50,181 nt of DNA from Thermoleophilia bacterium (GTDB taxonomy: Bacteria; Actinomycetota; Thermoleophilia; Gaiellales; Gaiellaceae), in contig JAOUHF010000005.1 in the NCBI GenBank assembly GCA_029865325.1, positions 1 to 50,181 of the forward strand, in the 5' to 3' direction. This document shows, one piece after another, positions 31,784 to 36,863 of this stretch; the stretch's first letter is position 1, and each line of letters begins with the position of its first letter. Both the position numbers and the translations under genes were made by a program. The notes below the pieces were generated by a model. That model was not told where the DNA came from. It did not search any database and was given only the letters and a program-made list of their open reading frames with translations.

Positions 31784-32101
31784 ATGGCAATCAACGTGAC
31801 AGAGGCGACATTCGAGCAGGAAGTGCTGAACAGCGAGACACCGGTGATCGTGGACTTCTGGGCCGAGTGGTGTGGCCCGTGCCATGCGGTCGCGCCCGTG
31901 CTCGAGAAGATCGCCGAGGAACGAGGAGACGGGATCAAGCTCGTCAAGGTCAACATCGACGAAGAGCAGGCCCTCTCGATCAAGTACGGAGTCATGTCGA
32001 TTCCGACGATGATCCTCTTCAAAGAAGGCGAGCCGGCCGCAGCAGCGGTAGGTGCGCAGCCGAAGTCTGCTCTCGAGCGCTCGCTGGGTCTCGCCGCCTA
32101 A
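31784..32101 (+). CDS. trxA: Thioredoxin
   Basis: A 105-residue thioredoxin. The redox site is FWAEWCGPCHAVAPVLEKI (Cys31 and Cys34), with the buried aspartate in VIVDFWAEW and the cis-proline in MSIPTMILFKEG. It reduces disulfides of cytoplasmic partners; ArsC in this window is one expected client, and peroxiredoxins are others. GAAAGGA about 14 bases upstream is the ribosome binding site, so this gene has a normal leader. Short inverted repeats and a 12-base-pair hairpin follow. Confidence 0.95.
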   Translation: MAINVTEATFEQEVLNSETPVIVDFWAEWCGPCHAVAPVLEKIAEERGDGIKLVKVNIDEEQALSIKYGVMSIPTMILFKEGEPAAAAVGAQPKSALERSLGLAA

Positions 32102-33177: not shown

Positions 33178-33200
33178 GGGGTCTGGCTTAACCAGACCCC
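33178..33200. terminator. Terminator hairpin between convergent genes
   Basis: GGGGTCTGG and CCAGACCCC form a perfect nine-base-pair stem around CTTAA. The loop contains the TAA stop of the minus-strand serine hydrolase, and the site lies just after the plus-strand cNMP-binding gene. Confidence 0.55.
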
Positions 33201-34000
33201 ACGAGCTCTTCGAGCACATCGTCGGAGAGACGAGGCCAGGCGTCCTTGGCCCACTCGCCAAACTCGCGCGTCGTCAGCACCGCACAGACGACGCCGGCGT
33301 CGGGATCGACCCAGAGGAACGTCCCCGAGCCCCCGAAATGACCGAAGGCTCGAGGTGACGCGCGCGCGCCCATCCACGTCGGCGTCGCGGTGTTGAGCTG
33401 CACGCCGAGGCCCCAGTCCAGAGGATCGAAGCGGCCGTGATCCGGGAGGACGCCGGTGAGCCCTGAGAACTGAACGCCCGTCATCTCGTCCAGCGTCTCG
33501 GGAGCGAGGAGCGTCGGCCGCAGGAGCTCGCGCCCGATCGCGAGCACGTCGTCGAGAGATGCGTGCATGCCCGATCCGGGATCGCCGCGAGGGTCGATTT
33601 CGACGCCGAGGGGCGCGGAGACGGCGGCGGTGACGTAGTCGACGAACGGCATCTCGGCGCGAGCCGAGAGATGGTCGCCGAGGACCCGGAACGCCTCGTT
33701 CGAGTAGATACGGCGACGGCCCGGCTGCCCAATCGGCGTCGTCCCCTCGAACGGAAGTCCAGACGCGTGCGCGAGAAGATGCCGAACTGTCGAACCCGGG
33801 GGGCCGGCCGGCTCGTCAAGGTCGATGACGCCCTCTTCGGCGGCCACGAGCACCGCGAGTGCGACGACAGGTTTCGAGACAGAGGCCATGCGCACGGCGC
33901 GAGCGCGGTCGCCGCGCGTTGTCACGTTGCCACCCGAATCGACGAACCCCGCGGCGGCGAACGCAACCGGCCACTCGTCGATCTGGTCAAGTACTTGCAC
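33188..34000 (-). CDS. Serine hydrolase of the class C beta-lactamase / DD-peptidase family
   Basis: A 270-residue member of the beta-lactamase superfamily (AmpC/EstB/PBP4* clan). Catalytic motifs are complete: SVSK (nucleophile serine and lysine, about residue 42), YSNEAF (tyrosine motif) and HFGGSG in the K-T-G position. HLLAHASGLPFEG is the usual family segment. There is no signal peptide, so it is probably cytoplasmic and may be an esterase rather than an antibiotic-hydrolysing enzyme. GTG 34000 is preferred over ATG 34039 because TAGTAT lies eight bases upstream and the longer form would overlap the divergent RidA gene. Confidence 0.85.
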   Translation of the reverse strand: MQVLDQIDEWPVAFAAAGFVDSGGNVTTRGDRARAVRMASVSKPVVALAVLVAAEEGVIDLDEPAGPPGSTVRHLLAHASGLPFEGTTPIGQPGRRRIYSNEAFRVLGDHLSARAEMPFVDYVTAAVSAPLGVEIDPRGDPGSGMHASLDDVLAIGRELLRPTLLAPETLDEMTGVQFSGLTGVLPDHGRFDPLDWGLGVQLNTATPTWMGARASPRAFGHFGGSGTFLWVDPDAGVVCAVLTTREFGEWAKDAWPRLSDDVLEELVGSG

Positions 34001-34008
34001 GTCGCGCG

Positions 34009-34014
34009 ATACTA
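34009..34014 (-). promoter_or_regulatory. TANNNT -10 box (TAGTAT) between divergent genes
   Basis: TAGTAT on the minus strand lies eight bases before GTG 34000 of the serine hydrolase. The same 22-base gap must also hold the promoter for the RidA operon; TACTAG (34010-34015), seven bases before ATG 34023, is an imperfect candidate. Confidence 0.4.
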
Positions 34015-34022
34015 GTGGGGCG

Positions 34023-34403
34023 ATGGAGCGACGCCTCATCCCGGGGACAGGCGCGTACGAACCGATAGTCGGCTACTCGCGCGCGGTCGTCGCCGGCGAC
34101 AGAGTGCATGTCTCAGGAACAGCGGCGAACCCGCCGGACGGCTCGCCTCCGCCCGCAGACATCTACGATCAGACTCTCCTCTGCCTCGAGCTCATCGGCA
34201 CCGCGCTCGAGAAGGCGGGATCGAGCCTGGAGCACGTGGTGCGCACGCGGGTGTACCTCACGGATCCCGCCGACTTCGACGGCTTCGCGCGCGCTCACGC
34301 GAAGGTCTTCCGCGAGGTGAGGCCCGCCAATACGACCGTTCTCGCTGGTCTCTTCGATCCAGCATGGAAGGTGGAGATCGAAGTCGAGGCGATGATCTCT
34401 TGA
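34023..34403 (+). CDS. RidA-family (YjgF/YER057c/UK114) protein
   Basis: A 126-residue trimeric-type RidA protein. Members hydrolyse reactive enamine/imine intermediates such as 2-aminoacrylate released by PLP enzymes. Visible are the VHVSGTAANPPDG loop, the segment AGSSLEHVVRTRVYLTDPADFDGFARAHAKVF, the arginine in VVRTRVYL that binds the carboxylate in active RidAs, and the C-terminal KVEIEVEAMIS with the usual E-x-E-x-x-A. It overlaps the GCS2 ligase by four bases through a TTGA junction and is the first gene of a three-gene operon ending in the selenoperoxiredoxin. Confidence 0.88.
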   Translation: MERRLIPGTGAYEPIVGYSRAVVAGDRVHVSGTAANPPDGSPPPADIYDQTLLCLELIGTALEKAGSSLEHVVRTRVYLTDPADFDGFARAHAKVFREVRPANTTVLAGLFDPAWKVEIEVEAMIS

Positions 34404-35620
34404 GCACCGAAAACGGCGACAAGCAGGCGATTCCAGCCTCGATTACCGGAGACGTCAACGAGCCGCGGGCGAGCGTGCTCGAACACCAGTTCGGCGACGG
34501 CGATCCGTACACGCTCGGCGTCGAGGAGGAGTACCAGCTCCTCGACGGGGCGACGTTCGACCTCGTCCAGCACATCGAGACGATTCTGGCGGCGGTGAGC
34601 GGGCACGAGCTCGAGACGCAAATCAACGCCGAGCTCATGCAGTCGGTGATCGAGATCGCGACCCCCGTGTGCCGGAGTGCCGATGACGTTCTGCGCGAGC
34701 TGGTGAAGCTGCGGAGATACGTCATTGACGTCGCGCGGGAGAGGATCATGCGCGTGGGGTCGGCCGGGACGCATCCGTTCAGCCTCTTCGAGGCCCAGCG
34801 CATCACGGCCAAGGACCGCTACCGAGCCCTCATCGACCAGCTCCAGTACGTCGCGCGGCGCGAGCTCATCTTCGGGATGCACGTGCACGTCGCAGTTGAC
34901 GATCCCGAGAAGGCAGTCAAAGTCGTCAACGGCCTTCTCCCCCACCTGGCATCGCTGCTTGCCCTGTCGGCGAGCTCGCCGTTCTGGAGAGGGGAGCCGA
35001 CAGGCCTGGCGTCCAGCCGGCAAATGGTCTTTTCGGCGTTCCCGCGTTCGGGACCGCCGCCGCGATTCCGCGACTACGCCGACTACGCCGAGGTCGTGGG
35101 GCAGCTCGAGCGCTCCGGTTGCATCGCGGACTACACGCACATCTGGTGGGACATCCGCCTGCACCCGCGCCTCGGCACGATCGAGCTCCGGATCTGCGAT
35201 GCGGTCACGCGCGTCGAAGATGCCGTCGCGATCGCCGCGTACTGCCAGGCGCTCGTCAAGCAACTGTGCGAGCAGTACGAGGCGGGCGAGGAGATCCCCT
35301 CTTACCACCGGATCCTGACAAGCGAGAACAAGTGGCTCGCGGCCCGCTACGGCCTCGAGGCGCCCGTCATGGATCTCTCGACCGGAAGCCGAAACCGTGT
35401 ACCCGTCTCGCGCCTGATCCGGCGGGAGCTCGGCGAGCTCAGGCCACACGCGCAAGAGCTCGGCTCCGAACGCGAGCTCGAAGGAGTTCTCGAGATTCTC
35501 GCTCGTGGGAATAGCGCAGAACGCCAGCTCCGGATCTTCTCCAGGAACCGAGACGTCGTCGAAGTTGCCCGTGAGGTCGCGGACGCGACCGAGCGGCTGC
35601 CCGTTCTAGCCCAGGCATAG
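34400..35620 (+). CDS. Glutamate-cysteine ligase family 2 (carboxylate-amine ligase, YbdK-like)
   Basis: A 406-residue enzyme of the GCS2 family, which forms gamma-glutamyl amide bonds, in several members gamma-glutamylcysteine. Core motifs visible are YTLGVEEEYQLLD (about residue 36), SAGTHPFSLFEAQRIT, the FGMHVHVAVDDPEKAV segment with substrate His, SSPFWRGEPTGLASSR, and the WDIRLHPRLGTIELRICDA motif. The start is uncertain: TTG 34400 overlaps the RidA stop (TTGA), while ATG 34364 lies inside ridA. The sequence before residue 30 is poorly conserved. The stop abuts the peroxiredoxin ATG directly. A low-molecular-weight thiol role is inferred from family and operon. Confidence 0.88.
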   Translation: MSTENGDKQAIPASITGDVNEPRASVLEHQFGDGDPYTLGVEEEYQLLDGATFDLVQHIETILAAVSGHELETQINAELMQSVIEIATPVCRSADDVLRELVKLRRYVIDVARERIMRVGSAGTHPFSLFEAQRITAKDRYRALIDQLQYVARRELIFGMHVHVAVDDPEKAVKVVNGLLPHLASLLALSASSPFWRGEPTGLASSRQMVFSAFPRSGPPPRFRDYADYAEVVGQLERSGCIADYTHIWWDIRLHPRLGTIELRICDAVTRVEDAVAIAAYCQALVKQLCEQYEAGEEIPSYHRILTSENKWLAARYGLEAPVMDLSTGSRNRVPVSRLIRRELGELRPHAQELGSERELEGVLEILARGNSAERQLRIFSRNRDVVEVAREVADATERLPVLAQA

Positions 35621-36082
35621 ATGCTCCAAGCCGGCGATCGGGTTCCGGAGGTCGAGGTCTGGGCGGCGCCGCGCGAGGAACCGCAGCCGCTGAACGAGAT
35701 CCTTGGCCCCGGACTGGCGCTTCTCTGCTTCTACCTCTGGGATTGGTCGCCGACCTGAACGGACGAGCTCGTGCTCCTGCGGGACAGGAGCCAGGATCTC
35801 GCCGAGGCCGGCGTTCGACCGCTCGCTGTCTCTCGCGACTCCCCCTGGTCGCACCGGGCCTGGGCAGAGGTGCTCGGGGTCGATGTGCCGCTTCTATCAG
35901 ATTGGAACGCCGACGCGACTCGCGCTTTCGGTGTCGCTTTCGAGCCGCTCGGGATGGCGGATGTCCCCATCCGGTCGATGTTTCTCATACGGGACGGTCG
36001 GGCGATCGTCGCGGCCTGGATGCTCGGCCGTGAGCTACCGGACATCGACGCGGTGATCGAAGCGGCTCGCGCCGCGTCGTGA
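35621..36082 (+). CDS. Selenocysteine-containing peroxiredoxin (TGA at codon 46)
   Basis: A 153-residue AhpC/TSA-type peroxiredoxin-like selenoprotein. Reading TGA 35756-35758 as selenocysteine gives LCFYLWDWSPT-U-TDELVLLRD, where U replaces the peroxidatic Cys in the family's F-Y-P-x-D-W-S-P-x-C-T-x-E-L motif. The frame then continues normally through VRPLAVSRDSPWSHRAWA, VDVPLLSDWNADATRAFGV and MFLIRDGRAIVA, all typical of peroxiredoxins, to a TGA stop. One cysteine remains (Cys36) and none follows U, so it is a 1-Cys type and needs an external reductant. ATG 35621 abuts the GCS2 stop. A hairpin 21 bases after TGA is the likely SECIS. Without Sec insertion only a 45-residue stub would be made. 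Confidence 0.88.
35773..35791 (+). promoter_or_regulatory. Candidate bacterial SECIS hairpin in the peroxiredoxin gene
   Basis: GCTCCTG and CAGGAGC form a perfect seven-base-pair stem with loop CGGGA. The loop begins 22 bases after the TGA and has G at its second position, matching the spacing and loop-G rule for bacterial SECIS elements recognised by SelB. It is embedded in coding sequence. Confidence 0.65.
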
Positions 36083-36083
36083 G

Positions 36084-36863
36084 CTACATCCCCATCGCGT
36101 GGTACCCGGCGTCGACGTACAGCGTCGTGCCGGTCACGTTGCCCGCGTCTTCCGAGAGGAGATATGCGGCCGCGGCGCCACAGTCATTCGCCTCGATGGC
36201 TCGATGAAGCGGTGCGCGCTCCTCGAACATCGTCTCCATCGTGGTGAAGCCCGCGATCGAGCGCGCCGCAAGCGTGCGCACCGGACCTGCCGAGATCGCG
36301 TTCACTCTGATCCCTTTGAAGCCGAGGTCCCACGCCAGGTAGCGAACGGAAGAGTCGAGGGTCGACTTGGCGACGCCCATGACGTTGTAGTGCGGAACCG
36401 CGCGCTCACCGCCGAGGTAGGTCATCGTCACGATCGATCCCCCGCCACGAGCCTCCATCAGCGGCTCGGCGGCGTGGCAGCAGGCGACGAGCGAGTACGC
36501 GCTGATGTCGACCGCCATCCAGAAACGGTCACGTGGGGTGTCGATGAACCGCCCCTCCAGATCCTCCGCTGCGGCAAACGCAACCGAGTGGACAAGGATG
36601 TCGAGCCCTCCGCCAAAAGTGTCGGAGACCTCAGAGAAGACGCGGGCGATGTCCTCGTCCGAGCGGACGTCGCACTCGGTGACGAGCGGGCTGGAGACGG
36701 TCTCGGCAAGGTCGCGGACGTTCTTCTCGATGCGCTCGCCCTGATAGGTGAACGCGACCTGCGCTCCCTCCTCCGCGAGACGTTGCGCGATCGCCCACGC
36801 GATCGAGCGCTTGTTGGCGACTCCGAGGACGAGTGCCTGCTTGCCTTCGAACCTGCCGGCCAT
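36084..36863 (-). CDS. fabI: Enoyl-[acyl-carrier-protein] reductase (NADH), FabI
   Basis: A 259-residue short-chain dehydrogenase-type FabI that reduces the trans-2-enoyl-ACP double bond in each fatty acid elongation cycle. Motifs are GVANKRSIAWAIAQRLAEEGA (cofactor loop), VHSVAFAAAEDLEGRFIDT, MTYLGGERAVPHYNVMGVAKSTLD with the Tyr-x6-Lys catalytic pair (Y in HYNVM, K in VAKS), and AISAGPVRTLAARSIAGF. It is a predicted triclosan target. It is convergent with the selenoperoxiredoxin, one base apart, and divergent from the SDR gene with a 33-base gap. Confidence 0.95.
   Translation of the reverse strand: MAGRFEGKQALVLGVANKRSIAWAIAQRLAEEGAQVAFTYQGERIEKNVRDLAETVSSPLVTECDVRSDEDIARVFSEVSDTFGGGLDILVHSVAFAAAEDLEGRFIDTPRDRFWMAVDISAYSLVACCHAAEPLMEARGGGSIVTMTYLGGERAVPHYNVMGVAKSTLDSSVRYLAWDLGFKGIRVNAISAGPVRTLAARSIAGFTTMETMFEERAPLHRAIEANDCGAAAAYLLSEDAGNVTGTTLYVDAGYHAMGM

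Follow-up and report, generated by a model that had tools for sequence, protein, structure and literature searches.

Why should a peroxiredoxin that carries selenocysteine (Sec, U) be encoded directly behind a carboxylate-amine ligase, and which thiol would keep it reduced? The question is raised by a three-gene operon at positions 34023 to 36082 of contig JAOUHF010000005.1 from Thermoleophilia bacterium (assembly GCA_029865325.1), within the 50,181-nucleotide stretch that was analysed (the window). All three genes lie on the + strand: a Rid-family gene (YjgF/UK114; 34023 to 34403, ATG start, 126 amino acids; PF01042, 89 bits), a GCS2-family carboxylate-amine ligase gene (34400 to 35620, TTG start, 406 amino acids; PF04107, 205.6 bits) and a gene for a 1-Cys-type selenoperoxiredoxin of the AhpC/TSA family (35621 to 36082, ATG start, 153 amino acids with TGA as U; PF00578, 73.6 bits), each Pfam match being over its cut-off. 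The Rid and GCS2 genes share a TTGA overlap, in which the GCS2 TTG start falls within the Rid stop, and the peroxiredoxin ATG stands immediately 3' of the GCS2 TAG stop with zero bases between them; these coordinates agree with the arrangement reported in an earlier note on this DNA. We propose, tentatively and at somewhat less than an even chance, that this is a small antioxidant operon in which the GCS2 enzyme makes a gamma-glutamyl thiol that reduces the selenoperoxiredoxin.

On comparative grounds, the in-frame UGA at 35756 to 35758 (+ strand) is selenocysteine, placed as residue 46 at the peroxidatic Cys position within FYLWDWSPTUTDEL. Among 55 distinct sequences, window included, this column holds TGA in 43, TGC in 11 and TGT in one. 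Homologues of the peroxiredoxin were found in 54 of the 249 genomes of the class, and of the 47 genomes of the window's family (f1) that have the gene, 43 carry an in-frame TGA; in a second family of the same order (f3), 4/4 have the in-frame UGA. A hairpin resembling a selenocysteine insertion sequence (SECIS) lies at 35773 to 35791 (+ strand), starting 14 bases past the UGA codon, with the stem core CTCCTG/CAGGAG. All 42 UGA members of f1 agree at 13 of the 15 core bases, and in them five stem pairs are always standard and the next two are so in 39 and 34 members, respectively, the last of them being C-G instead of G-C in five; the loop reads CGTGA in 39 of the 42 and CGGGA in the window's sequence and in two more. 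The core is broken in all four Cys members of the family. In the same 42 sequences the arginine codon at position 10 after the UGA is AGG, a triplet used for 4.5% of the arginines across the family loci. Against a SECIS stands the minimum-energy fold of the element taken alone, which differs in 5/42 UGA members (L016, L036, L070, L087 and L099), and a search of Rfam gave no match at the hairpin site. The window's own genome carries, on a single contig (C118), SelA (525 bits), SelB (344 bits) and a tRNA-Sec with anticodon TCA (64 bits), and the selenoprotein named in the earlier note is thus borne out by the UGA/Cys column, the hairpin and the machinery together.

The machinery is distributed less evenly across the family. 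SelA was found in seven of 16 UGA-bearing f1 genomes tested and in none of the other nine, 13 of the 16 having been chosen for lacking SelB over cut-off; the nine assemblies without SelA are 78-91% complete, so that missing contigs are likely, though unproven. The genomes in which a UGA peroxiredoxin occurs with neither SelA nor SelB over cut-off (G085, G123, G135, G174, G177, G205, G219, G235 and G239) presumably have either incomplete assemblies or divergent machinery. G063 has neither protein over cut-off and carries the Cys form, and G009, G096 and G110 likewise have neither and no such peroxiredoxin; G039, G138 and G150 possess both SelA and SelB, yet their peroxiredoxin is the Cys form, and G045 possesses both without such a peroxiredoxin. 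Two peroxiredoxin copies (G229:C1:84894-85331 and G215:C105:2828-3217) contain an extra in-frame TAG or a TAA and have perhaps decayed. Beside tRNA-Sec on C118, some 7-8 kb from SelA/SelB, lie genes for a glutamate ligase of the RimK family and for a peptidase resembling Xaa-Pro dipeptidase, the latter under its cut-off (L066 11400-12551 and 12587-13780).

The model of the peroxiredoxin (predicted local distance difference test score, pLDDT, 96.9) is similar in fold to Bcp4 (Z 22.5) and AhpE (Z 20.9), and by its predicted fold the protein is of the AhpE/Bcp type. In an 18-row alignment, U/C46 is the sole invariant Cys column, and no other Cys occurs in the matched stretch of 28/36 Sec members of f1, 18/20 Rubrobacteraceae members and 2/4 f3 members; a Cys 74 residues further on is present in two of the four Cys-form members and two of the four f3 members. 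No resolving Cys is therefore conserved, as expected of the 1-Cys(Sec) type to which this AhpC/TSA protein with Sec46 had been assigned, and the oxidised selenium would consequently need a thiol from outside. When the peroxiredoxins of f1, f3 and Rubrobacteraceae were constrained to a single clade, the approximately unbiased test left such a clade neither supported nor rejected (p-AU 0.31, on a tree from which two more long rows had been dropped); the corresponding test without f3 (50 of 84 sequences, p 9e-6) carries no meaning, since f3 falls within f1.

The GCS2 protein is over the NCBIfam cut-offs of PRK13515 (carboxylate-amine ligase) and TIGR02050 (YbdK family), and reaches 398.9 of 409 bits, just under cut-off, with the nearest glutamate--cysteine ligase equivalog. 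Its model (pLDDT 82.9) matches YbdK (1r8g; template modelling score, TM, 0.76; 27% identity) and the plant glutamate-cysteine ligase (2gwc; TM 0.71), and E42-E44, E85, H161, H163, R253, E262 and R264 are among the residues that do not vary in an alignment of 16 rows. The protein is thus predicted to combine a fold of the glutamate-cysteine-ligase type with conserved acidic, His and Arg residues. In a comparison of the amine pocket, the plant enzyme aligned over about 50 residues only. The window's genome also holds a second GCS2 paralogue (L208, contig C174), which belongs to the same lineage as the peroxiredoxin-paired GCS2 of Rubrobacteraceae; the gene beside it is presumably glycosyltransferase-like.

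The mycothiol ligase MshC was over cut-off in none of eight genomes of the class and none of seven Rubrobacteraceae, and of the other three among the 18 genomes tested it was over cut-off in G290 and G326 and not in G402. With MshC in 0/15 genomes of the two groups, mycothiol is unlikely as the reductant, and the accessible part of a published paper likewise describes mycothiol genes as absent from non-actinomycete actinobacteria except Acidimicrobium (PMC4255298). As for glutathione, the only PF02955 match in the window's own genome lies in a RimK-type ligase and is under the glutathione-synthase cut-offs, and this thiol was rejected. An ergothioneine pathway was also rejected as the reason for the GCS2 gene: the protein is not EgtA (TIGR03444, 24.9 of 370.8 bits, under cut-off), and EgtD is patchy, being present in the window's genome and 6/7 Rubrobacteraceae and in 0/4 other f1, 0/2 f3 and 0/1 f7 genomes. 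To our knowledge, the small thiol that replaces mycothiol in deep-branching actinobacteria is an open question. Given a peroxiredoxin with no conserved resolving Cys, no MshC over cut-off and no recognised glutathione synthase in the genomes searched, and the modelled GCS2 fold, a gamma-glutamyl thiol, perhaps gamma-glutamylcysteine, appears the likeliest partner.

A lack of conserved gene order in relatives had been set beforehand as a refuting result; for GCS2 and the peroxiredoxin the order was found to recur. The peroxiredoxin and an orthologue of the linked GCS2 (best E below 1e-100, hand-counted) occur together in 39 of 61 f1 genomes, the peroxiredoxin alone in eight, GCS2 alone in four and neither in ten (Fisher p 2.6e-4, uncorrected for relatedness, with six of the ten double absences falling in one genus). 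The two genes share a contig in 34 of the 39 genomes and lie on different contigs in five (G101, G106, G195, G225 and G235); 32 of the 34 same-contig loci have them on the same strand, and in the other two (L072 and L074) they lie on opposite strands, separated by about 11 kb. They are directly joined in 18 of the 32 same-strand loci, 17 of which have spacings of -4 to 45 bp and one a spacing of 221 bp. The spacing count was fed 41 loci, of which 34 were picked for having GCS2 and the peroxiredoxin on one contig, three are without GCS2 and four without the peroxiredoxin. Where the two genes are parted in several genera (L067-L099), the gap often holds a sigma-70-type factor, a zinc carboxypeptidase (PF00246) and beta-propeller-like genes; in one genus (g3; L083, L088 and L091), ThiS-family, BNR-repeat and membrane-protein-like genes stand 3' of the peroxiredoxin.

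A second pairing was found in Rubrobacteraceae. A scan of named genomes gave ten loci, eight of them from Rubrobacter/Rubrobacteraceae, and in all eight an opposite-strand GCS2 gene adjoins the peroxiredoxin gene or lies one gene off; the peroxiredoxins of these eight loci have Cys and are 35-40% identical to the window's. In a sample of 396 genomes of the phylum, which overlaps the named-genome scan, the Rubrobacteraceae (f23) had GCS2 divergent from the peroxiredoxin in 20/20 loci with strong matches (E under 1e-45), six further genomes with only weak peroxiredoxin matches being left out of the 20. By match extents the distance is 110-230 bp in 15 loci and 789-880 bp in five, three of which were gene-called and have one small gene between. 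This pairing does not include the Rid gene. Nor is the GCS2 gene the same: in a tree of 49 sequences (10 of the f1 linked rows and 8 Rubrobacteraceae rows), the paired GCS2 of Rubrobacteraceae groups with the other paralogue lineage that includes L208 and not with the window's GCS2, and a single clade of the paired GCS2 of both groups was rejected (p-AU 3.1e-6; 21 rows versus 25). Three long-branch rows were left out of that test, and three orthologues without the peroxiredoxin (L121-L123) were held with the f1 linked rows. From these sequences it follows that either the pairing arose twice or the GCS2 partner was swapped; either history would point to some benefit of having a GCS2-type enzyme next to this peroxiredoxin.

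A mechanism can be drawn from these parts. The selenoperoxiredoxin, whose Sec and family are read from sequence and whose fold is predicted, would reduce peroxides by Sec46, after which the oxidised selenium would be reduced by an outside thiol. The gamma-glutamyl compound supplied by GCS2 would most likely be gamma-glutamylcysteine or a similar small thiol; it could form a mixed selenenylsulfide with Sec46, to be resolved in turn by another thiol or by a protein like glutaredoxin. In these lineages such a thiol would take the place of mycothiol, much as haloarchaea use gamma-glutamylcysteine instead of glutathione.

Several observations weigh against this proposal. The two genes are separated by 1.2-6.2 kb in 14 of the 32 same-strand loci, and the five genomes with different contigs and the two with opposite strands, out of 39, depart from it further. 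G003, G138, G063 and G165 have Rid and the peroxiredoxin but not the linked GCS2, and G009, G045, G079 and G183 lack this peroxiredoxin but keep Rid and GCS2, GCS2 being in two pieces in G079. Much of the surrounding gene block is also conserved in f1, so that the adjacency there is partly plain synteny, and the related family f3 carries its Sec-peroxiredoxin away from GCS2 (four loci). GCS2 was near none of 20 more distant peroxiredoxin loci (13 of them with UGA), which were chosen from the weaker rows of the phylum scan, with at most about 5 kb fetched on each side and some on short contigs. At the level of the proteins, three of the four Cys-form members of f1 have another Cys in the matched stretch (one is without), the two linked GCS2 lineages show no excess of shared residues (2 columns, against 1-32 for other group pairs), and the sequence data do not point to an amine substrate for this YbdK-type enzyme. 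Distant actinobacterial Sec-peroxiredoxin lineages (L179-L191), with 13 UGA loci, have neither the same hairpin sequence nor GCS2 in the stretches fetched.

The main rival reductant is thioredoxin. Many Bcp/PrxQ and AhpC enzymes are reduced by thioredoxin, the nearest solved folds include Bcp/PrxQ types (NCBIfam matches to thioredoxin-dependent models are far under cut-off), and a thioredoxin gene (31784 to 32101, + strand; PF00085), whose end is 1.9 kb upstream of the operon, lies in the same conserved gene block and recurs there in f1 (cluster 7). The selenoperoxiredoxin could accordingly be served by thioredoxin, with GCS2 and the peroxiredoxin as co-expressed stress genes that share no metabolite. 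We consider this somewhat unlikely: no resolving Cys is conserved, cluster 7 was not seen in the eight Rubrobacter loci, where GCS2 is the conserved partner, and the twofold pairing with GCS2 would be left unexplained.

A second rival involves the Rid protein. The earlier note had it as a RidA that removes reactive enamines, and imine hydrolysis by RidA is tied to one arginine (Arg105/107), about 10% of RidA proteins having Ser at that position, in the part of the source available (PMC4433059). In alignment to 2csl the window's protein has Asn103 there, and among 38 distinct sequences, window included, the column holds N in 15, S in 12, T in six, A in five and R in none. The RidA role is therefore unsupported, and judged by its residues the protein is probably not an imine hydrolase. 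That part of the earlier reading fell; the selenoprotein, its 1-Cys(Sec) type, the operon and the conserved link between GCS2 and the peroxiredoxin stood. Since Rid and GCS2 are tightly spaced (fewer than 100 bp apart in 24 of the 32 loci where they share a strand, a set that overlaps the 32 above only in part), Rid may belong to the GCS2 reaction. The two could then form a gamma-glutamyl-amide unit of their own, unrelated to thiols, with the peroxiredoxin as a syntenic neighbour and the Rubrobacteraceae pairing as coincidence. Such a unit would account for the four genomes that keep Rid and GCS2 where the peroxiredoxin is missing, for the long gaps in 14 of 32 loci and for the distant peroxiredoxin loci that lack GCS2. 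Against it, the 20/20 pairing in Rubrobacteraceae involves a different GCS2 paralogue and has a rough chance of about 0.002 (three GCS2 genes, the count in most Rubrobacteraceae genomes looked at, in about 3,000, and two neighbours), and the co-occurrence of GCS2 and the peroxiredoxin in f1 runs counter to it with the same lack of correction for relatedness; we regard it as unlikely. Finally, that the UGA is a true stop, with the downstream frame a separate or dead gene, would fit the nine genomes without SelA, out of 16 mostly preselected ones, and is otherwise so improbable, given the UGA/Cys alignment, the invariant hairpin core, the fixed rare AGG and the tRNA-Sec, SelA and SelB of the window's own genome, that we reject it.

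The operon is bounded on both sides by genes of the opposite strand. Upstream lies a serine beta-lactamase-family gene (33188 to 34039, - strand; PF00144), a conserved neighbour divergent from the Rid gene, whose start codon is unsure and which possibly overlaps the Rid start; downstream lies a convergent enoyl-ACP (acyl carrier protein) reductase-like gene (36084 to 36863, - strand; PF13561).

A gamma-glutamyl thiol as reductant of the selenoperoxiredoxin would have a wider meaning. We think it unlikely on balance, and worth stating, that the mycothiol-less actinobacteria (Thermoleophilia and Rubrobacteria) have gamma-glutamylcysteine, or some thiol made from it, as their main small thiol, with a dedicated 1-Sec/1-Cys peroxiredoxin, twice paired with such a ligase, as its peroxidase. 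If true, this would be a system like that of glutathione peroxidase, built from other parts. The GCS2-selenoperoxidase operon names a testable candidate thiol together with its peroxidase, and cultured Rubrobacter species, which have the Cys version, are a convenient test system.

As far as our literature search reached, with subscription journals mostly outside it, Sec-peroxiredoxins and GCS2 ligases are already known, and their operon and repeated pairing, of which no report was found, appear to be new. By 2006 at the latest Sec-peroxiredoxins had been described: 12 bacterial ones with a T/SxxU motif were listed in that year, with five Cys-to-Sec changes as read from the table of that source, which was available in part (PMC1794560). 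Sec takes the place of the peroxidatic Cys in those proteins as in the window's, which differs in being of 1-Cys type, actinobacterial (Thermoleophilia) and in an operon with a GCS2 ligase. The Rid protein shares PF01042 with RidA and is without the Arg needed for imine hydrolysis. For the proposed thiol, the analogue would be the haloarchaeal system of gamma-glutamylcysteine and bis-gamma-glutamylcystine reductase, in which gamma-glutamylcysteine is the terminal thiol without glutathione synthase; the portion of that source available describes no peroxiredoxin operon (PMC7278568), and in the window's system the thiol is a putative one. The GCS2 protein has the Pfam family and both NCBIfam assignments of YbdK and a matching predicted fold, at only 27% identity. 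A further comparison is with mycobacterial AhpE, a Cys-based 1-Cys peroxiredoxin reduced by mycoredoxin-1 or via mycothiol, according to the part of the source available (PMC4360819). In place of that Cys and that thiol, the window's protein has Sec, and MshC was not found in the 15 genomes; it shares with AhpE its size, its predicted fold (2.2 A over 148 residues), a single catalytic residue and the apparent need for an outside thiol.

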